The position numbers were made by a program, and so were the translations under genes. A stretch of DNA of 39,389 nt from Actinomycetota bacterium (lineage in GTDB: Bacteria > Actinomycetota > Actinomycetes > S36-B12). Every line of letters starts with the position of its first letter. Positions within the stretch are counted from its first letter, which is position 1. This document shows positions 1 through 10,568 of the stretch, piece by piece. The stretch spans positions 1 to 39,389 of the forward strand of contig JAFMFD010000013.1 in assembly GCA_017856385.1 (NCBI GenBank). Direction: 5' to 3'. The notes beneath the pieces are model-generated. The model was not told the DNA's origin, did not search any database, and saw nothing but the letters and a program-made list of their open reading frames with translations.

Positions 1-2019
1 CCGCAGGAGTTCCTGGCCAAGATCCCGGCGGTGGAGCCCATGATGTCCGGGTACAAGGGCACGTCGTCGTTCATCCCGCCGGCGGTGGCCAACGCGAAGG
101 ACAAGCGCGGGTGCAACCTGCGCCAGCGCATGCTGATCTCTGCGGCCTACACCAAGCCCAAGGTCGGCAAGAAGTGCGCGCTGACCGGCGGTGTGTGGTG
201 GGTCGACGGCGGGACCAAGAAGGTGACGAGGGCGAAGGACGTCACCTTCACCACGGCGCTGACCCTCGCTGAGGCGTGGGGTCAGGGTGCATCGCAGTGG
301 ACCCCGCAGCAGCGGCTGGCCTGGGCCACGCAGGTTGAACGCTCCACACCCGCCGCGGGCGTGCAGACCCGGGCCAAGGCTGTGTCGGCCCTCGCGGCCA
401 CGCAGCAGGTCATCAGCGAGGCGACCAAGAAGGAGGCCGAGGCGCAGGTCGCCCTGGAGGACCGGAAGATCGAGGTCATCCTCTACATGACCTACTGCAA
501 TCGAGGCCTGTTCACACTGGCGGCAATGGCGACGAATGTGTTCATTGTGGGCATCTGCAGCCAGAAGTGGACTGATGAGCAGGTGAAGGCGATCCTGAGC
601 GCGGACGATGTGCTCGAGCGGATCTGCTGGCGTGAGGGCAATCGCATGTTCAACGTCGTCTCCTGGGGCCTCTCGCTCGCGCCCGATGACCTCGAGCGCC
701 TTGACGCCATCACCGGCATCTGCCAGGAGGTGGGCGTGCTCTCGGGCGCCTACATCATCGGGATGGCGTCCGAGGAGTACAAGATCGCCCGGATACCGCA
801 GCCCACGACGGTGACGACATCCGTGATCGACCCCGATGGAGTCGACCGGGGGACCACCGTCGTGAAGGTACCGTTCCAGGACTACTCGGGCCAGGCGACC
901 ACGCCCCTGATCACCAGCGAGCTCTTCGGCGTGGCGGCCCCGGTCGACTGGGGTGATCCGGGAGTCCCGACCGGGTACCTGCGCCTGTGGGATGCGGGTG
1001 TCTCGTGGCGGCAGATGCAGCCATCGAAGGACGGGCCCATCGACTGGACCAAGCTCGATGCCACGATGGCGATGGCGTCACGCATCGGCGCGAAGGTGAT
1101 GTACGTCCTCGGCGACACCCCCGGCTGGGCCAACGGCGGCAAGAGCGGCGCCACGCCGCCGACCAACCTCGATGATGCGACGAGGTTCATCAGTCAGGTC
1201 TGCAGTCGTTACAAGGGCTCCACGCCCATTCATGCCTACGAGGCCTGGAACGAGGGCAACCTCGAGACCTTCTGGACCGGGTCCATGTCCGATCTTGCAG
1301 AACTGACGTCGCGCCTGGATCGGACATTGAGCACCTGCGGATCGGGGAACCTCTACGCGTCCAGCACCGGCACGCGTTCGACCAACGCCTTCGCCACGAA
1401 GTACCCCGAGTACCTGCGCCAGCTCGAGGCACGCTTTTGGCCCATCGACGGCTACACCGTCCACTCGTATCCGGCCGCTGATGGTGGTCCCGCGCAGCGG
1501 ATCGAGGAGATCGCCCAGTTCAAGACCCTGCTCGCGCAGAACCGAGCGCCGGTCAAGCCGATCCTCGACACCGAGCTGAACTACGGGCTTGCGGGGCTGG
1601 GGCAGGATCGCCGTGCGATCGATCCGAGCACCGGTGCTGCCTACCTCTCGCAGTCGTTCATCCAGTCGGTGCAGTACGGCGTGGACTCGCTGTTCTGGTT
1701 CCTGTGGACGCAGGCCGACTACGACAAGCTGGGTATCCAGCTCAATGCCGGCACCCCGCAGACGATCCAGGCGTGGAAGCAGACGTACTCGTGGCTGGTG
1801 GGCCGGCAGATGACGCGCTGCGCGGACGGCCTTGTCGTTCAGGCGTGCCAGCTGACAGGGGCGAAGGGCAACATCACCCTGCTGTGGACGAAGGGTCCGG
1901 AGGTGTCGGTCGACGTGACCGGGCTCGGCAGCACCGTCCAGTACCTCGACGGCACGTCACTGTCGATCGGATCCTCCAAGACCATCGGCCTGGGCATCGC
2001 CCCGGTGGCGGTCTCCTGA
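1..2019 (+). CDS. Secreted dead-HNH / glycoside hydrolase-like protein, copy 1 (5' partial)
   Basis: The reading frame is open from base 1, and the first residues (PQEFLAKIP) align with the region after the signal peptide in the complete copy downstream, so the true start lies before the window. Two parts are visible. An N-terminal part (about bases 40-330) matches the secreted HNH nuclease at 8875-9765 around RGC, KCAL and AWGQGA, but the nuclease motif DIDH is replaced by TFTT (bases 244-255). The C-terminal part (about bases 930-1830) looks like a clan GH-A barrel: WNEGN (acid/base Glu at 1252-1254) and LDTELNYG (nucleophile Glu at 1573-1575), with conserved VHSYP between them. A middle segment (about 450-800) is family-specific. 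Export is inferred from the sister copy. The sugar substrate cannot be told from sequence. Confidence 0.85.
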   Translation, partial: PQEFLAKIPAVEPMMSGYKGTSSFIPPAVANAKDKRGCNLRQRMLISAAYTKPKVGKKCALTGGVWWVDGGTKKVTRAKDVTFTTALTLAEAWGQGASQWTPQQRLAWATQVERSTPAAGVQTRAKAVSALAATQQVISEATKKEAEAQVALEDRKIEVILYMTYCNRGLFTLAAMATNVFIVGICSQKWTDEQVKAILSADDVLERICWREGNRMFNVVSWGLSLAPDDLERLDAITGICQEVGVLSGAYIIGMASEEYKIARIPQPTTVTTSVIDPDGVDRGTTVVKVPFQDYSGQATTPLITSELFGVAAPVDWGDPGVPTGYLRLWDAGVSWRQMQPSKDGPIDWTKLDATMAMASRIGAKVMYVLGDTPGWANGGKSGATPPTNLDDATRFISQVCSRYKGSTPIHAYEAWNEGNLETFWTGSMSDLAELTSRLDRTLSTCGSGNLYASSTGTRSTNAFATKYPEYLRQLEARFWPIDGYTVHSYPAADGGPAQRIEEIAQFKTLLAQNRAPVKPILDTELNYGLAGLGQDRRAIDPSTGAAYLSQSFIQSVQYGVDSLFWFLWTQADYDKLGIQLNAGTPQTIQAWKQTYSWLVGRQMTRCADGLVVQACQLTGAKGNITLLWTKGPEVSVDVTGLGSTVQYLDGTSLSIGSSKTIGLGIAPVAVS

Positions 2020-2107
2020 CCGTCGCTGCCCGATGTGGGCGCAGTTCCTCGGGGGCGGTCCGGGGAGAGTCGCTCGGCGATGGTGCGATCCGTGACACCA
2101 TGCGTCG

Positions 2108-4258
2108 GTGACGCGACGCGTAGGCGGCCGGTGGGCTGCGACAGCACTGACCTCCGCACTCCTGCTGGGAGCTCTTCCCTCGCAGGCTGCGGCGGCACCG
2201 GTGATCGATGCGGGAGGAGCGGCAGAGCGTGCGCGCCCGACGGCCCAGACGAGAGTCTCCGGCTCGGTCGCTGAGTTCATCCAGCAGATCCCCGGCATCG
2301 TGCCGATCAAGGCCGGCTACAAGGGAACCAGTTCGTTCATCCCCCCGGCGATCGCCAAGGGCAAGGACAAGCGCGGGTGCAACCTGCGTCAGCGCATGCT
2401 CATCCAGTCCGCATTCGTGGCGCCGAAGGTCGGCCGCAAGTGCGCCCTTAAGGGCGGGGTCTGGTACGTCAACAACGGAACGAAGCGGGTGACCAGGGCG
2501 AAGGACGTCGCCTTCAGCCCCACCATGTCCCTGAGCGATGCCTGGGGCCAGGGGGCATCGCAGTGGACCCCGGCGCAGCGACTGGCCTGGGCCACCCAGG
2601 TGGCCAAGCCCGGCCCGGCGAAGCGGGCTAAGGCGGCGACGTACCAGCAGGCGACGCAGCAGCTCATCTTCGCGTCCGACCTGGAGACGGCCTCGAATCT
2701 GGCGAGCGCGACTGCCACGGCTATGTCTGACGCAGAGCTGTACACCAAGTTCTGCAAGCGCGGCATCGCGACGCTCCTGTTCCTTGCCAGCAATCCCTCG
2801 ATGATCGCCCTGTGCTCGAGGTCGGACAGTGACGTGTGGTCTGCCCTGGAGGTCGCCGACGACCTCGAGAGCTTCTGCATGGCTTTCGTCTCCCGCGTCC
2901 TGAACGTGAGGTCGTGGGGTCTGTCCCTGTCGCCTCAGGAACTCCAGCTCCTGGAGGCGACCAGCTCCAAATGCGGGTTCTCGACCCTCTACTACCTGCT
3001 CCTCCTGGCCTCAGCCGAGAACGGCATCATCCCCATCCCGCAGCCACAGGCGGTGAGCACCACGGTCGATGGCGTCACCGCATCGGAGAGCGTGGTGACG
3101 CTGCCGTTCCGGGACTTCCATCCGTCGAGAGGTGGACTCCCGTTAGGACCAGAGCTCTTCGGTGTGGCTGCCCCGGTGGACTGGGGTGAGCCGGGTGTGC
3201 AGACAGACTACCTGCGCCTGTGGGACGCCGGCGTCAGTTGGCGCCAGATGCAGCCGTCGAAGGACGGGCCGATCGACTGGGAGAAGCTCGACCTGACCAT
3301 GGCGATGGCCGAGAAGATCGGCGCGAAGGTCATGTACGTCCTTGGTGACACGCCAGCGTGGGCGAACGGCGGCAAGAGCGGGGCGACACCTCCGACCGAC
3401 CTGGGCGACGCGGCGACGTTCGCCGGCCAGGTGTGCTCCCGCTACAAGGTCACCAATCCCATCACGTCGTTCGAGGTGTGGAACGAGGGGAATCTGACGA
3501 CCTTCTGGACCGGCACGATGGAGGAGCTCGCAGATCTGACAGCGAAGGTCAGCGCGGCCTTGGAGGCCTGCCGTGGGGGGACGATGGTGTTGGCCTCGTC
3601 GACCGGCACCCGGGCGAGCAATGCCTTCGTGACGAACTACCCGGCCTACCTCAAGGCGCTGGCGGCCAGGGACTGGCCGGTCGACGGCTTCACCGTCCAC
3701 TCGTACCCGTCGGCCAGCGGGGGCCCCGTCCAGCGCGCCGAGGAGATCGCCCAGTTCAAGACCCTGCTCGCGCAGAACAGGGCTCCGCTGAAGCGCCTCC
3801 TCGACACCGAGCTGAACTACGGCCTGGCGGGCCTGGGTGAGGGGCGTCGGGTGATCGATCCGGCCACCGGCGCGGCCTACCTCTCCCAGTCGTTCATCCA
3901 GTCGGTGCAGTACGGGATCGACTCCACGTTCTGGTTCCTGTGGACGCAGGCCGACTACGACAAGCTCGGCATTCAGCTCAATGCCGGCACCCCGCAGACG
4001 ATCACGGCCTGGAACCAGACCCGCTCGTGGCTGCTGAACCGGACCATGGAGCAGTGCGCGAGCGGCCAGGGCGTCACCGCCTGCCAGATGTCCGGCGGGA
4101 GCGGCAACCTGTTGCTGCTGTGGACCGATGAGGGGACCAAGCAGGTGAACCTCGGGGGTCTGGGCTCGAGGGTTCAGCAGCTTGATGGCTCGGTGTCCTC
4201 CGTGCCGGCCAGCAGGGTGATCACGGTGGGAATCGCCCCGGTGGCCGTCCTGCCATAG
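2108..4258 (+). CDS. Secreted dead-HNH / glycoside hydrolase-like protein, copy 2
   Basis: This is a 716-residue tandem paralogue of the preceding gene, starting at GTG 88 bases after it. Residues 1-30 form a signal peptide (arginines, then a hydrophobic run ending AAAA). Residues 70-165 align with HNH/DUF1524 nucleases: RGC (Cys91), KCAL (Cys112), GGVWY and DAWGQGA are kept, but the catalytic D-x-D-H positions are Ala135, Ser137 and Pro138, so nuclease activity is not expected. Residues 350-640 resemble a clan GH-A hydrolase, with Glu460 in WNEGN as likely acid/base and Glu568 in DTELNYG as likely nucleophile. The two copies are very similar in the barrel and diverge in the middle (residues 170-330). 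The likely role is extracellular glycan binding or cleavage; the exact family and substrate are unknown. Confidence 0.87.
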   Translation: MTRRVGGRWAATALTSALLLGALPSQAAAAPVIDAGGAAERARPTAQTRVSGSVAEFIQQIPGIVPIKAGYKGTSSFIPPAIAKGKDKRGCNLRQRMLIQSAFVAPKVGRKCALKGGVWYVNNGTKRVTRAKDVAFSPTMSLSDAWGQGASQWTPAQRLAWATQVAKPGPAKRAKAATYQQATQQLIFASDLETASNLASATATAMSDAELYTKFCKRGIATLLFLASNPSMIALCSRSDSDVWSALEVADDLESFCMAFVSRVLNVRSWGLSLSPQELQLLEATSSKCGFSTLYYLLLLASAENGIIPIPQPQAVSTTVDGVTASESVVTLPFRDFHPSRGGLPLGPELFGVAAPVDWGEPGVQTDYLRLWDAGVSWRQMQPSKDGPIDWEKLDLTMAMAEKIGAKVMYVLGDTPAWANGGKSGATPPTDLGDAATFAGQVCSRYKVTNPITSFEVWNEGNLTTFWTGTMEELADLTAKVSAALEACRGGTMVLASSTGTRASNAFVTNYPAYLKALAARDWPVDGFTVHSYPSASGGPVQRAEEIAQFKTLLAQNRAPLKRLLDTELNYGLAGLGEGRRVIDPATGAAYLSQSFIQSVQYGIDSTFWFLWTQADYDKLGIQLNAGTPQTITAWNQTRSWLLNRTMEQCASGQGVTACQMSGGSGNLLLLWTDEGTKQVNLGGLGSRVQQLDGSVSSVPASRVITVGIAPVAVLP

Positions 4259-4812: not shown

Positions 4813-5180
4813 ACGACGACGTCCTGCTGGAGGCGCGCGAGGCCTTCGCGAGGGGCCGGGCTGACGAGGCCCTGCAGGAGGCCTGGCAGATGACGATGCC
4901 CGCAGTTCTCGGTCAGGACGCTGAGCAGCTCGCCCGGTCAGCGGCGTTCGCCGAGGAGGTGGCGTGCGCCACGTCCGGGGGGACCCAGAAGGAGGCCCGC
5001 CAGTACGCGGCCTACTGGTCGGCCTGCATCGAGGAGCCGCGTGACCGGCAGGGGACCGCATGGAACATCAAGAGCTGGTTCCGCCGGGCTCCGCGGGAGC
5101 GGCGGTATCCGTGCCCGCAGTGCGCTGAACTCATCCTCGTCGATGCCAAGGTGTGCCGATTCTGCGGACACGGGCTGTGA
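4809..5180 (+). CDS. Small protein with C-terminal zinc ribbon
   Basis: A 123-residue protein starting at an ATG that overlaps the previous stop (ATGA). The first 90 residues are mostly helical and charged, with no recognised family. The last 25 residues carry two Cys-x2-Cys knuckles (CPQC and CRFC) 15 residues apart, the pattern of a zinc ribbon of the kind found at the ends of small regulatory or adaptor proteins. No signal peptide or membrane segment is seen. Its position between a phosphatase-like gene and a membrane glycosyltransferase, with overlaps on both sides, argues for one transcript. The function is not known. Confidence 0.7.
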   Translation: MNDDVLLEAREAFARGRADEALQEAWQMTMPAVLGQDAEQLARSAAFAEEVACATSGGTQKEARQYAAYWSACIEEPRDRQGTAWNIKSWFRRAPRERRYPCPQCAELILVDAKVCRFCGHGL

Positions 5181-6628
5181 CGACCCTGGCACCGAGTCCG
5201 CGGCGGCGGATGCTTCCGTCCGGTCAGGGGCGCACGCTCGGCCGGCTCGTGGTGGTGCTCGTCGTCCTCGTCCCCCTGGCCATCGCGTGGATCACGGCGT
5301 TCGCCGCGAAGTACCTCGACGGTGACCCGTTCAATCCGGAGCCGCTGGTCTTCGCGCTGCCCGGCGTGACCATCCTGACCATCAACGAGGCGCCGCGCAT
5401 CGAGCTGTTCGTGCTGGCTGGCGTGGGCCTGACGATCGTGGTGCTGGGAGCCGTCGTGCTCGAGGGACTGGCCTCGCTGCGGGTGCTGTATCCGCTGCGC
5501 AACCGCCTACCGTTTGTGCTGCCACCCTCCGCGGAGAGATCCGAGCCCACCGTCGTCGTCGTGCTGCCTGCTCACAACGAGGCGGAGACCCTGCCTGCGA
5601 CGCTGGCCGGACTCGCGGCCCAGACACATCGACCTGATCGCATCGTGGTCGCGGCCGACAACTGCCAGGACGGGACGGAGGCGGTGGCCCGCGCACTCGG
5701 TGCGGAGGTGTACGTGACCGAGGGCAACACCGATCGCAAGGCGGGGGCCCTCAACCAGGTGCTCACGCGACTCCTGCCGACGCTTCGCCAGCAGGATCTC
5801 GTCCTCGTCGCGGACGCCGACACCGTCCTCAACCCAGACTTCCTGGCGAACGGCCTCGCGGCGATGCAGGCCGATCCGGGGATCGATGCCATCGGGGGCC
5901 TCTTCTACGGCGACTCCGGATCAGGACTGCTGGGGCAGTTCCAGCGGAACGAGTACGAGCGGTACCAGTTGCAGATCAAGCAGCGGAAGGGTCGTGTCTT
6001 CGTGCTCACCGGCACGGCATCGATGTTCCGTGCGGAGACCTTGGCCGACGTCGCGCAGGCGCGAGGCACCCTGCTCCCGGGGCGGTCGGGCGACATCTAC
6101 GACGCTTCGGCCATCACCGAGGACAACGAGCTGACGCTGGCCCTGAAGACGCTCGGGTGCCGCATGACGTCGCCGGTCGGCTGCACGGTCGCGACGGAGA
6201 TCATGCCGACCTGGCGGGCGCTGTGGACCCAGCGCAAGCGGTGGCAGCGAGGAGCGCTCGAGAACCTCGGCTCGTACGGCTTCACCACCGCCACTGTCCG
6301 GTACTGGGGCCAGCAGTTCGGCCTCGCCTACGGGGTCATTGCGCTGACGGCGGCGTACGTGCTGCTCCTCATCGCCGCGCTGGCGGCCGACCAGTGGTAC
6401 TGGGTGCCCTTCTGGGTCGCCGTGACCGTCGTCTATGTCGTCGAGCGCGTGCTCACCGTGCTGCGCGGTGGCCCTGCCGCGATGCTCGTCGCCGCACCGC
6501 TCATCCTGGAGATCGCCTACACGTTCTTCCTGCAGGCGGTGTTCGTCTCGGTGCTGTTCGACATCGTGCGGAGGCGCACCGCGAGATGGGGCCATGTGCA
6601 GCGGAAGGGGGTCGTCGATGCCTCCTGA
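5177..6628 (+). CDS. Membrane family 2 glycosyltransferase (processive type)
   Basis: I chose GTG 5177 because it overlaps the upstream stop (GTGA); an in-frame GTG at 5153 is an alternative. The protein is about 483 residues: two N-terminal membrane helices, a GT-A catalytic domain, then three or more C-terminal helices. Family 2 motifs are all present: VVVVLPAHNE at the start of the domain, Asp213-Ala-Asp215 (metal/UDP-sugar binding), the TED motif (Glu315-Asp316) for the catalytic base, and QRKRW at 352-356, the acceptor-site motif of processive enzymes such as cellulose, hyaluronan and poly-N-acetylglucosamine synthases. It therefore probably builds or exports a cell-surface polysaccharide from a nucleotide sugar at the inner membrane face. 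The sugar is not deducible. The last 11 bases overlap the next gene. Confidence 0.88.
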   Translation: MTTLAPSPRRRMLPSGQGRTLGRLVVVLVVLVPLAIAWITAFAAKYLDGDPFNPEPLVFALPGVTILTINEAPRIELFVLAGVGLTIVVLGAVVLEGLASLRVLYPLRNRLPFVLPPSAERSEPTVVVVLPAHNEAETLPATLAGLAAQTHRPDRIVVAADNCQDGTEAVARALGAEVYVTEGNTDRKAGALNQVLTRLLPTLRQQDLVLVADADTVLNPDFLANGLAAMQADPGIDAIGGLFYGDSGSGLLGQFQRNEYERYQLQIKQRKGRVFVLTGTASMFRAETLADVAQARGTLLPGRSGDIYDASAITEDNELTLALKTLGCRMTSPVGCTVATEIMPTWRALWTQRKRWQRGALENLGSYGFTTATVRYWGQQFGLAYGVIALTAAYVLLLIAALAADQWYWVPFWVAVTVVYVVERVLTVLRGGPAAMLVAAPLILEIAYTFFLQAVFVSVLFDIVRRRTARWGHVQRKGVVDAS

Positions 6629-7457: not shown

Positions 7458-7486
7458 TTGCGCGCGGTGCCCACGCTGCCTACCGT
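7458..7486 (+). promoter_or_regulatory. alkB promoter (leaderless type)
   Basis: TTGCGC at 7458-7463 and TACCGT at 7481-7486 are 17 bases apart, the usual spacing for the main sigma factor. The ATG at 7494 begins 7 bases after the -10 box, where transcription itself should start, and no ribosome site lies between. A leaderless mRNA is therefore likely. Confidence 0.6.
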
Positions 7487-7493
7487 CATTGCC

Positions 7494-8867
7494 ATGACGA
7501 CGCTGGCATGGCGTGATCGCAAGCGGCCGCTGTGGCTGCTCGCCCTCGCCATGCCCCTGATCCCCTTCGCCGCCGTCGGCCTGCTCGACGTGACCGGCTG
7601 GGCCGTGTGGGCGTGGCTTGGGCCGATCGTCATCCTCGGGGTGGTCCCGCTGATCGACCTGCTGGCCGGGGTCGATCGCGATGGGCCGGGTGACGATGCG
7701 ATCGCCGCCGTCGAGCAGGACCGCTACTACCGCTGGATCACGTTCGCCTTCCTGCCCTTGCAGTACGCGGGGTTCGCGTTCGCGTTCTGGTACCTCGCGA
7801 CGGGCGGGATATCTGTCGTGGACCGGATCGGGCTGGCGGTGACGGTCGGCTTCATCGCCGGTCTGGGCATCAACACCGCGCATGAGCTGGGGCACAAGCG
7901 TGAGGAGCACGAGCGCTGGCTGGCCAAGATCGCCCTCGCGCAGAGCGCCTACGGGCATTTCGCCGTCGAGCACAACCGTGGTCACCATGTGCGGGTCGCG
8001 ACGCCGGAAGACCCGGCGAGCAGCCGGGTCGGGGAGTCCTTCTACGGGTTCTGGCCGCGTACCGTCGGTGGCTCCGTGCGCAGTGCGTGGGCCATCGAGC
8101 GGCGACGCCTCGGGCTGCGCGGGCGTCGACCCCTGAGGTGGGACAACGATGTCGTCAATGCCTGGGCGATGACGCTGGCGCTGTGGATCGTGATGGTCGT
8201 CTGGCTGGGCTGGGCGATCCTGCCGTACCTGGTCATCCAGGCCCTCGTCGGCATCACGCTGCTGGAGGCGGTGAACTACCTCGAGCACTACGGCCTCCTG
8301 CGCGAGCGCGTCGGCACCGGGGAGCGCGAGCGGTACGAGCGCGTGGAGCCCCGGCACAGCTGGAACTCGAACAACCTCGCGACGAACGTGCTGCTGTACC
8401 ACCTGCAGCGTCACAGCGACCACCACGCGTATCCGACCCGTCGCTACCAGGCCCTTCGCGATCACGACGAGGCGCCGGTTCTGCCCACGGGCTACGCCGG
8501 GATGATCCTGCTGGCGCTCGTTCCGTGGGCCTGGAGCCGCGTGATGGATGTGCGGGTCCTCGACCACTACGACGGTGACATCACGCGCGCGAACGTGCAG
8601 CCGTCCGCGCGATCGCGCGTCCTTGAGAGGTACCCCGTCCCCACGCAGTCACCGAGGCTCGCGGTCGACGTGGCGGTCGGTGCGACGTCGACACTCGCCG
8701 AGGCGGCGCACCTGCGCTGCCCGGGGTGCGGCTACCGCTACGACGTCGAGCGCGGTGATCCGCGGGAGGGCCTCATGCCGGGCACCCCGTGGGCCGATGT
8801 GCCCGTGGACTGGGTGTGCCCGGACTGCGGCGTGCGCGGGAGGGACGACTTCGTCGCCGAAGCGTGA
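7494..8867 (+). CDS. alkB: Alkane 1-monooxygenase fused to rubredoxin
   Basis: A 457-residue integral-membrane di-iron hydroxylase that adds oxygen to the end carbon of alkanes or related chains. The three histidine boxes of the AlkB family are present: HELGHK (from His130), EHNRGHH (159-165) and LQRHSDHH (304-311), plus NYLEHYG. Several membrane helices surround them. Residues 405-455 are a rubredoxin, with iron-binding pairs Cys409/Cys412 (CPGCGY) and Cys442/Cys445 (CPDCG), so the electron donor is built into the enzyme. Such fusions are known in actinobacteria. The start at ATG 7494 is set by the promoter spacing. A rubredoxin reductase is not seen nearby. It ends 7 bases from the converging nuclease gene. 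The real substrate range cannot be read from sequence. Confidence 0.93.
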
Positions 8868-8874
8868 CGCCGTG

Positions 8875-9765
8875 TCACTCGCAGGCGACCCCGTCGCGAT
8901 CCCGGTCCATGTGTCTGTTGGCGGCGTACAGCGCGGGTGAGTCGGCGCGACGGATCGGCGTCACGCCGGCCGCACGAGCGGCCGTGCAGTTGGTGTATCG
9001 CACGACGTCGCCGGCCACTGCAGCCGTCGGCATCGACGACTGCGGTGCCGGGGGGACGAAGCCCGTGGTGCTCGGGGCAGGCTCGGTGAACGTCCCGTCC
9101 TTCGGCAGCCGCTTGTCCGGGCACGCCGACAGGATCCGGCGGATGGCGTCGCGCTCGGCCGTCGTCACCCACAGGTCGTAGCGGCTCTTCACCGCCACCT
9201 GCCGCGCCACGTACGCGCATCGGTAGCGCCTGCTCGACGGCAGCCATGTGGCCGCATCACCGTCGCCCTTCTGCCGGTTGGCGCTGGCTGAGACGGCGAG
9301 GAGGTTCAGTGGGTCGTTCGCGAACTGCTCGCGCACCGCGAAGTCCAGCTGCTGGGCGCCGGTCGCCCACGCATTGCCCAGCGCGACCACGTGGTCGATG
9401 TCGACCACGGACCGGCCCCTGACGAAGGTCAGGGGGCGGCCTGTGTAGGGGTCCGGGTACAGGACACCGGACAGCACCGTGCAGCGGTTCCCCATGACCC
9501 GCTCGACGAGGTCGCGCCGCAGGACGTCGTTGCGGGTGTCGCACCCGTTGCGGTCGACGTCCTTCCATGACGAGCCGAACTGGGCGCGGTGGTACCACGT
9601 CATGGGCGCGCGGCCCTTGACCGGCAGGGACTCCAGCACCGACAGCGCGGTCGGGGCAGGGTCCGCCATCGCGGGCGACGGCAGTGCCACGGGCACGAGC
9701 AGCAGCGCCGCGGCAAGGGCCAGCAGCAGCGCTGCCGACCTGAACGTCCCCCGCACTGCTGTCAT
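8875..9765 (-). CDS. Secreted HNH nuclease (DUF1524/GmrSD type) with Excalibur domain
   Basis: A 296-residue exported protein. Residues 1-34 are a signal peptide. Residues 50-230 are the HNH domain of the DUF1524/GmrSD C-terminal type: RNGC (Cys75), a second Cys95, then DIDH (122-125) with the catalytic histidine, and a later NRQKGD motif that completes the site. After a proline-rich linker, residues 260-296 form an Excalibur domain, with the calcium-loop motif DRDRDGVACE at the very end. I chose ATG 9765 because the signal peptide begins there. Proteins of this build are common in actinobacteria and are thought to act on extracellular DNA; the role here is inferred. The two paralogues at the window start carry a dead version of this nuclease domain. 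Confidence 0.88.
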   Translation of the reverse strand: MTAVRGTFRSAALLLALAAALLLVPVALPSPAMADPAPTALSVLESLPVKGRAPMTWYHRAQFGSSWKDVDRNGCDTRNDVLRRDLVERVMGNRCTVLSGVLYPDPYTGRPLTFVRGRSVVDIDHVVALGNAWATGAQQLDFAVREQFANDPLNLLAVSASANRQKGDGDAATWLPSSRRYRCAYVARQVAVKSRYDLWVTTAERDAIRRILSACPDKRLPKDGTFTEPAPSTTGFVPPAPQSSMPTAAVAGDVVRYTNCTAARAAGVTPIRRADSPALYAANRHMDRDRDGVACE

Positions 9766-9789
9766 CCCTGCCCCCGATTCGCCCACGCC

Positions 9790-9795
9790 ACTATG
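9790..9795 (-). promoter_or_regulatory. Possible -10 box for the HNH nuclease gene
   Basis: CATAGT on the minus strand, about 24 bases before the ATG at 9765, with a G-rich possible ribosome site (GGGGGCAGGG) in between. No convincing -35 element. Confidence 0.3.
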
Positions 9796-9825
9796 GCAGA
9801 AGCCACACCTAAGGGGTCCTGACGA

Positions 9826-9831
9826 GATACT
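9826..9831 (+). promoter_or_regulatory. Possible -10 box for the membrane protein gene
   Basis: GATACT lies 32 bases before ATG 9864; the sequence AAGGGAG at about 9851-9857 is a good ribosome site for that ATG. A weak candidate on its own. Confidence 0.35.
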
Positions 9832-9863
9832 GGGTACCTGCCAGGTTGACCAAGGGAGCGGGC

Positions 9864-10568
9864 ATGGCAGCGAAGTCCTCAGGCCCACGCGCGGTGGGCG
9901 CGATCCGCGTTATCGCGATCCTGCTCGCCGTCGTCACGGCCCTTTACACCGCGATCGCGCCATCGATCCTGTTCTTCATGTCGATCGGCTCGTACGAGTG
10001 CCTCGGCACGTCCTGCGATGCCGCCACCCGCGCCGTCGCGTGGGGCGCACTCATCGCCTATCTCGCGGGAGCGGTCTCCATCATCGGGTGGATCATGCTG
10101 GCGGTGCGGCCCGGGAGGGCGCCGGCCGTCGTCGCCATCGTGGCTGCCCTGGTGCTCGTGGTGGCAACCCTCGCGCAGGCGTGGGGGGTCTCGACGCTGT
10201 CCGCAGGACGTGCGGCCGGCAGTGCTGCGACCGAACTCGTCGTCACTGCGGCCGAGGCGGCGCAGCGGGCGGTCGAGGAAGTCACCGGCCGGTCGATCAA
10301 GGAGGGCGCGGACATGTGGGGTCCGGACATCGAGGTCGCGGACTGCCCCGATGGCGAGACCGGCTTCGTCGCTGTCGTCCGCCTGTACTTCGCGCCCGGT
10401 GTGGTGGTCGAGGATCCCGCGCAGGTGCGTGACGTGCTCAGTGCCGCATCCCCGGACCCGGTGCCGCCGTCGACTGCCCTCACCTGGACTGTCGAGTGGC
10501 AGGAGGAGGCCGACCGCGGCGTGCTCGAGGTGCGCTCGAACTGCCAGCCGTTGCCCGTGGGGTCCTGA
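9864..10568 (+). CDS. Membrane protein of unknown function (three helices)
   Basis: A 234-residue protein. I chose ATG 9864 because AAGGGAG sits about 7 bases before it; an in-frame TTG at 9846 is less likely. Three hydrophobic segments (about residues 11-37, 55-75 and 80-100) are followed by a 130-residue soluble tail that begins with an alanine-rich helix and contains two cysteines (VADCPD and SNCQP) that could pair. The two extra cysteines between the first helices (ECLGTSC) may also form a disulfide, suggesting an outside loop. The family is not recognised. The gene ends 6 bases before the converging VWA gene. Confidence 0.65.
   Translation: MAAKSSGPRAVGAIRVIAILLAVVTALYTAIAPSILFFMSIGSYECLGTSCDAATRAVAWGALIAYLAGAVSIIGWIMLAVRPGRAPAVVAIVAALVLVVATLAQAWGVSTLSAGRAAGSAATELVVTAAEAAQRAVEEVTGRSIKEGADMWGPDIEVADCPDGETGFVAVVRLYFAPGVVVEDPAQVRDVLSAASPDPVPPSTALTWTVEWQEEADRGVLEVRSNCQPLPVGS

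Follow-up and report, generated by a model that had tools for sequence, protein, structure and literature searches.

DUF1524 nucleases (GmrSD_C, PF07510) appear in the literature found here mostly as agents of restriction and phage defence (including PMC4619093). Nucleases reused as nucleic-acid binders are described among fungi, in Ssd1 and other RNase II/Dis3-like proteins (PMC8097288, PMC8934651); such pseudonucleases have reportedly kept the nuclease fold after losing catalysis, but they are RNA binders with another fold and without a fused hydrolase. The exopolysaccharide hydrolase PslG of Pseudomonas aeruginosa, a member of glycoside hydrolase family 39 (GH39), has Glu165 and Glu276 as its key residues and, in the construct described (residues 31–442), comprises a catalytic and a carbohydrate-binding domain without a nuclease-derived module (PMC7237758). 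No fusion of a DUF1524 domain to a glycosidase is described in the literature that we searched by title and abstract start, a search that covered few subscription papers. Here we analyse two tandem genes at the start of an actinobacterial contig (JAFMFD010000013.1, assembly GCA_017856385.1); the window is this entire contig of 39,389 nucleotides, from a genome of 2.6 Mb in 161 contigs. Each gene apparently encodes a secreted fusion of a degenerate DUF1524 domain (hereafter the dead domain) to a GH39-like barrel, and we propose that a nuclease fold has here been reused as a polyanion-binding module on a secreted glycosidase, an interpretation to which we give about an even chance of being correct.

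Profile comparison shows that the two tandem proteins begin with a domain homologous to the secreted DUF1524/GmrSD_C HNH nucleases, as the earlier note on this DNA had suggested. An hhalign comparison of 22 dead domains (24 fusion proteins after the merging of identical cores) with 26 intact nucleases of the same bacterial family gave a program probability of 98.8, an E-value of 7.3e-17 and a score of 113.7 over 107 columns, against scores of at most 18.8 in 30 column shuffles and 11.7 for the reversed profile. Of the 61 matches to Pfam GmrSD_C, 26 domains make up the active set (25 from other loci and one from the window's own intact nuclease gene); L041 and L043, which look like whole GmrSD restriction enzymes, were excluded, L039 and L040 were left out uninspected, and the other matches went unused. 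Beyond the core, an alignment of the remainders covers 38 columns around WGLSLSP...C and has the register expected of homologues; it scores 25.9, compared with at most 18.8 in 50 shuffles, with a program probability of only 32.65. Searched against 394 genomes of the class, the dead-domain profile matched at E ≤ 0.001 in 200 genomes and retrieved nucleases in many families, with E-values down to 1.3e-29; in the 15 top-scoring genomes outside the bacterial family, the best matches carry D-x-D-H in 14 cases and R-I-D-H in one. At E ≤ 10 neither copy has a listed match to Pfam GmrSD_C, in a search whose HMMER filters drop most matches above about 0.1; the intact nuclease gene at 8875–9888 matches it with an E-value of 1.2e-16 and a score of 61.3 (cut-off 23). 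With the DUF1524/GmrSD_C nucleases of Actinomycetes the fusions share the order of elements GY, GC-x-x-R, C-x-L-x-GG-x-W, AW-x-x-GA-x-x-W-x-x-x-x-R and a C-terminal W-x-L...C; they differ in the loss of D-x-D-H, in the replacement of the N..K half of the HNH, in a core that has gone from mostly acidic to basic, and in the fused glycosidase. The earlier note's list of kept nuclease surroundings was incomplete: the last DUF1524 part, WGLSLSP...C, is kept as well. Descent from the neighbouring nuclease at 8875–9888 was considered but is not supported; our tree places that gene with active nucleases of a different and distant clade.

The residues at the former active site indicate that the dead domain looks to have lost catalysis. 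The replacement of D-x-D-H by TFTT in copy 1 and by AFSP in copy 2, read from the letters before, is confirmed, and the motif is kept in none of the 24 aligned fusion proteins, which have neither Asp nor His in those columns. Its first position is Lys or Arg in 11 of the 24, and its last is Pro in 11, Lys in 11 and Thr in two; nowhere in the dead domain does a column have His in half of the rows. All 26 active comparison domains have D-x-D-H, but that set was cut using the motif. The loss was larger than had been claimed and exceeds four residues, because the stretch that bears N..K in the nucleases has been replaced by a variable insert in the fusions. The Cys91/Cys112 pair of copy 2, also noticed earlier, is present in 24/24. 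We found no fused intermediate with catalytic residues in this bacterial family (f1) among the 24 aligned proteins, nor among five more f1 sequences (L123–L127) over the part that matched; four of these five carry the glycoside hydrolase motif, the fifth (L127) being cut by a contig end. Partial or misread rows (L021, L022, L025, L034, L036 and L037) were dropped from the fusion set, as later was L017 (X at the stop); L029 and L038 yielded no usable slice, and L082, L086, L089, L097 and L100 are absent from the alignments because of a stop codon, a broken frame or a gene that extends past the contig end. As a separate observation, the fusion genes of some relatives (L017/L082 and L086/L073) are broken by an in-frame TGA or a frame break, through decay or assembly error, and locus L038 (genome G053) has a GH39-like frame of 618 residues that lacks the first half of the dead domain but keeps AWSQGAYGW and SWGLS, a further decay of the module.

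The rear part, which the earlier note had described as a GH-A-like barrel with two glutamates, is GH39-like in fold searches, where the modelled barrel comes closest to PslG and to a GH39 enzyme from Bacteroides. For the full-protein model (mean predicted local distance difference test [pLDDT] score 73.9), the top four rows of VIA-align were the GH39 enzyme of Bacteroides cellulosilyticus (5jvk, Z 30.6) and PslG (Z 29.4–29.5), over 340–352 residues, followed by a Croceicoccus glucosidase (27.8), a GH39 xylosidase (25.3) and then GH39, GH30 and other enzymes at about 24. The Bacteroides enzyme, the best fold match (340 residues, root-mean-square deviation [rmsd] 3.2), was also first in Foldseek (E 2.5e-13); it is only 17 per cent identical, and the match leaves the nuclease-like part of the model uncovered. 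PslG (5bx9, 4zn2 and 9g17) shares the barrel and the C-terminal beta domain over 347–352 residues with an rmsd of 3.1–3.4, at 18 per cent identity. A search of the PDB with the family profile returned GH39 xylosidases (E 4.7e-07) and PslG (E 8e-07), with the WNE of PslG aligned, at about Glu165 when counted along the chain, and its nucleophile outside the alignment. Both E460 and E568 occur in 24/24 aligned fusions, only E460 lying within the stretch aligned to PslG; E568 we take to be the GH39 nucleophile. Pfam Glyco_hydro_39 gives copy 2 only 12.8 bits against a cut-off of 26 and does not list copy 1, and a GH39-like paralogue in the same genome passes it with 31.2. A retaining glycosidase activity of the GH39 type is predicted from sequence and fold for the rear part. 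At another locus of the window's own genome (L143:3768–6298, minus strand), two GH39-like genes without the nuclease domain, one of them Pfam-confirmed, lie near sugar transferase, methyltransferase and epimerase genes, surroundings that fit polysaccharide metabolism.

When modelled on its own, the N-terminal domain is predicted as a helix, strands, two helices, a strand and a long helix, with the former D-x-D-H on the strand at residues 96–100. The ten-residue blocks of residues 41–100 have pLDDT values of 84–92 and the next three blocks 73–81, and the last strand and helix are less confident (about 71–73 where they start).

Among the genomes searched, the fusion is found only in this bacterial family and forms one clade. 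The dead domain was matched at 27 loci, of which 25 have the WNE of the barrel and 24 both glutamate motifs; those without the full glutamate motifs are L086 (frame break) and L089 and L100 (genes that run off the contig end). Fourteen of the 35 genomes of this family have the domain in its strong form (at least 92 bits), as against none of the 24 from other families in the order, and the matches above 106 bits in the class sample all come from this family. In a tree of 72 rows, the dead f1 domains form one side of a branch with a support of 100/100. Six dead domains of another actinobacterial family (f14) group together (100/98) and are joined to two active f14 domains (96/80), whereas L133, from the same family, stands apart on a long branch, and the dead label within f14 needs two changes. 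This tree supports at least two separate losses of catalysis, in f1 and in f14, with a third not settled; it rests on 110 columns with long branches, its bootstrap had not settled, L109 was left out, L121, L128 and L166 are absent, and the f14 member L152 has a stop in its match and has not been shown to be fused.

The f14 proteins carry the dead domain on other hydrolases. In the six found first (L128, L129 and L131–L134), Pfam Metallophos is over its cut-off in five and fn3 is over its cut-off in three and under it in two, and the sixth protein (L133) is a peptidase of the reprolysin type; GmrSD_C passes in two (23.2 and 26.9), is below the cut-off in two (19.7 and 19.6) and is unlisted in two. 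A phosphoesterase with a degenerate domain is present in 5/8 f14 genomes (six proteins: L128, L129, L131, L132, L134 and L155, the last assigned by similarity to L131 and not by Pfam), and the same genomes also have intact D-x-D-H domains (L153, L154, L157, L160, L161 and L166). None of the eight f14 domains chosen as degenerate keeps either D-x-D-H or N..K; because L128 keeps D-H and L129, L132 and L134 keep E-H, f14 may be at an earlier stage. Two architectures from this search are recorded in their own right: L133:1503–4082 (minus strand) is a reprolysin-like metallopeptidase that also contains PPC and Ig-type domains and ends in a degenerate DUF1524 domain, and L109 has a 716-residue frame with a WHEWLH stretch, metalloprotease-like by eye, before a DUF1524 domain with R-I-D-H in place of D-I-D-H.

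Purifying selection on the dead domain is, by these gene comparisons, about as strong as on the enzyme part. In 10 gene pairs, the ratio of non-synonymous to synonymous substitution (dN/dS) was 0.00–0.35 for the core (nine pairs, the tenth being without change), 0.045–0.27 for the barrel and 0.13–0.82 for the insert, and the insert exceeded the core in 9/9 pairs with changes; copy 1 and L078 gave 0.19 for the core, 0.19 for the barrel and 0.34 for the insert. These are simple Nei-Gojobori counts, the pairs are not all independent, and several have few changes. The net charge of the dead core is +9 to +15 (mean +12.2) in 24/24 fusions, compared with −2 to −8 for the barrels of the same chains. 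The same half of the 26 active domains of the bacterial family has a mean of −4.1 (range −10 to +4), and in 14 of 15 domains from elsewhere in the class the mean is −8.2. Well-kept basic positions of the dead core include K86, R94, K107, R158, R173 and K175, of which R158 is also Arg in the nucleases. In the six f14 degenerate domains (five phosphoesterases and one peptidase) the charge is +16 to +19, and in the preceding 500 residues −8 to −24.

We propose the following explanation. Each gene would encode a secreted two-part enzyme with a GH39-like retaining glycosidase at the rear, built like PslG. The front would be a secreted DUF1524 HNH domain that has lost both its metal-binding and catalytic residues and the latter half of its HNH motif, has kept the cysteine pair and the rest of the core, and has turned basic. 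It may now bind a polyanion (extracellular DNA, an acidic exopolysaccharide or a polymer of the wall) and could thereby tether the hydrolase to a mixed matrix or to the cell surface, as carbohydrate-binding modules do for other hydrolases. We favour polyanion binding because three lines of evidence agree on it: selection, charge, and the presence of dead domains on unrelated hydrolases. Of the earlier proposal of a reused binding module, the nuclease origin and the catalytic loss stand on profile comparison, tree and residue counts; binding to a phosphate-rich polymer we infer from selection, charge and recurrence.

Several observations weigh against this explanation. Five divergent fusions of the same family (L035 and L123–L126) have cores of only +4, +3, +3, +8 and +6, near or within the active range (up to +4); a partial sixth (L127) has +11. 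After a stricter second cut, the f14 degenerate domains have +12 to +17 (6/8 cut) and the nearest active domain (L153) has +3, yet two active f14 domains of another clade reach +10 and +11; further domains in this cut have −9 (L114) and −21 to 0 (13 from other families of the class), and L132, L134, L161, L166 and L121 were not cut. When only the core is counted, dead f14 domains have +1 to +7 and active ones −8 to +6, which are overlapping ranges. A uniform change of charge, which we had considered, is not borne out by the divergent fusions (+3 to +8) and the two basic active f14 domains. Net charge is in any case no proof of polyanion binding and cannot name the ligand, and the 24 fusions count as one event because they are all one clade. 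When nine loci were compared by their gene starts, no neighbouring gene recurred at every one, and no shared neighbourhood names a substrate. The full-length model, in which confidence is lower in this part, calls neither the strand at 96–100 nor that at 146–150, and the structure prediction proposed earlier as a check gave a domain modelled with most confidence over residues 41–100 and without a significant nuclease fold match: Foldseek found nothing in the PDB at E ≤ 0.001, the VIA-align rows cover mainly the helical insert (Z up to 4.1), and the best BFVD match, a phage protein with a GmrSD C-terminal domain, is neither significant nor well superposed (probability 0.93, E 0.093, TM-score 0.33, rmsd 14.9). 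Since sequence searches of the PDB recovered no relative of either the nuclease or the dead domain, the comparison with PDB folds is uninformative here.

Whether the ligand is DNA, an acidic polysaccharide or a wall polymer cannot be told from sequence, and the evidence from charge varies among the fusions. In a reading that overlaps with our explanation, the domain would be a carbohydrate- or wall-binding module whose ligand is not nucleic acid but the glycosidase's own substrate, a particular acidic polysaccharide or wall polymer; we regard this as possible, if somewhat doubtful. It would agree with the reported action of the structural neighbour PslG on the biofilm exopolysaccharide matrix, with the setting of the GH39-like paralogues among sugar transferase, epimerase and methyltransferase genes, and with the family 2 glycosyltransferase downstream of copy 2, although this last gene is not beside the fusion in L076. 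It fits less well with the Lys or Arg that replaces the former first Asp in 11/24 sequences. A nuclease fold, moreover, already offers a surface for a phosphate backbone.

A purely structural role, in which the dead domain serves the folding, secretion or oligomerization of the glycosidase and has no ligand of its own, seems unlikely to us. The best-kept features are indeed the disulfide-type cysteine pair and the core residues, the domain sits at the N-terminus before a variable helical linker and the barrel, and the five divergent fusions are only weakly basic. A scaffold, however, leaves unexplained both the shift from mostly acidic to +9 to +15 in 24 sequences and the dead domains that stand C-terminally on unrelated hydrolases behind fn3-like domains, and GH39-like paralogues without the domain exist in the same genome. 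That the domain is still a nuclease using other residues is very improbable: pseudoenzymes may have migrated catalytic residues, according to one account (PMC10211241), but here no His column reaches half of the sequences, the invariant residues that were listed include a single acidic one, Asp87, and the N..K half has been lost. Convergence, by which RGC, KC-L, GG-W and AWGQGA-W would be a chance pattern, is hardly credible and is refuted at the profile level by the controlled 107-column match and the single-profile matches to nucleases in other families of the class, even with Pfam GmrSD_C unlisted for either copy.

Extending the polyanion-binding explanation beyond the fusions, DUF1524 nucleases may have been turned, at least twice independently, into basic targeting modules that hold extracellular hydrolases (glycosidases, phosphoesterases and perhaps peptidases) on extracellular DNA or other phosphate-rich polymers; we advance this tentatively and consider it rather doubtful. 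If true, a nuclease fold would join the modules that target secreted enzymes, others could be searched for by the combination of a dead active site and a shift to basic charge, and some bacteria could direct the hydrolysis of polysaccharide and phosphate to a DNA-rich or phosphate-rich matrix in this way. HNH/DUF1524 labels on secreted multidomain proteins may then name proteins that do not cut DNA.

Table 1. Features of the tandem fusion genes and of the comparison nuclease, in window coordinates.
Feature	Position	Strand	Basis or remark
Copy 1, pseudonuclease–GH39 fusion (predicted)	1..2019	+	672 codons, 5′ end truncated at contig edge
Copy 1 degenerate DUF1524 core	19..345	+	Alignment core columns; net charge +11
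Copy 1 TFTT in place of D-x-D-H	244..255	+	Sequence and alignment
Copy 2, complete fusion gene (predicted)	2108..4258	+	716 codons, GTG start, Sec-type leader by eye
Copy 2 degenerate DUF1524/HNH core, residues 60–168	2285..2611	+	hhalign against active nucleases; net charge +15
Cys91, first of kept Cys pair (24/24 fusions)	2378..2380	+	Aligned fusion proteins
Cys112, second of kept Cys pair (24/24 fusions)	2441..2443	+	Aligned fusion proteins
Copy 2 AFSP in place of D-x-D-H, residues 135–138	2510..2521	+	Sequence and alignment
Copy 2 insert replacing N..K half of HNH, plus linker, residues 169–338	2612..3121	+	Faster-evolving (dN/dS), mostly helical (models)
Copy 2 retained DUF1524 C-terminal part, N..SWGLSLSP...C289	2903..2974	+	hhalign of remainders
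Copy 2 GH39-like TIM (triosephosphate isomerase) barrel, residues 343–643	3134..4036	+	Foldseek, VIA-align, hmmsearch of PDB
E460 (WNE), predicted acid/base, aligned with PslG WNE	3485..3487	+	PDB profile search and 24-protein alignment
E568 (DTE), predicted nucleophile	3809..3811	+	Invariant in 24 aligned proteins; role as in GH39 generally
Copy 2 C-terminal beta domain, residues 644–716	4037..4255	+	Model
Intact DUF1524 nuclease with Excalibur domain (comparison gene)	8875..9888	−	Not closest relative of dead domain in tree

Both fusion proteins are apparently secreted, as the earlier note had stated. Copy 2 has a leader that looks to the eye like a Sec-type one; that of copy 1 is missing because the contig starts inside the gene, and a same-genus relative (L012, on the same contig as L078) has one, again judged by eye. 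Identity between the two copies is 69.7 per cent in the core, 36.1 per cent in the insert, 75.7 per cent in the barrel and 50.0 per cent in the C-terminal part. Elsewhere in their genome there are six more matches, all to the glycosidase or the C-terminal part only; tandem fusion copies also occur in the genome of L085.

Across the nine loci viewed, close relatives share neighbours with each other. The window's next gene is shared by L076, which also has an intact nuclease nearby, and was seen in none of the other eight. About 900 bases downstream of copy 2, a family 2 glycosyltransferase (5153–6628, plus strand) could make a surface polysaccharide. Farther on, at 7467–8867 (plus strand), lies a fatty acid desaturase-type protein fused to a rubredoxin, resembling an alkane hydroxylase. 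The relatives with the fusion include an assembly from Lac Pavin, and most of the others are presumably labelled as coming from lakes or reservoirs. Six loci (L080, L081, L082, L085, L091 and L100) are titled Bifidobacterium breve yet carry the Actinomycetota gene family, and these labels look wrong.

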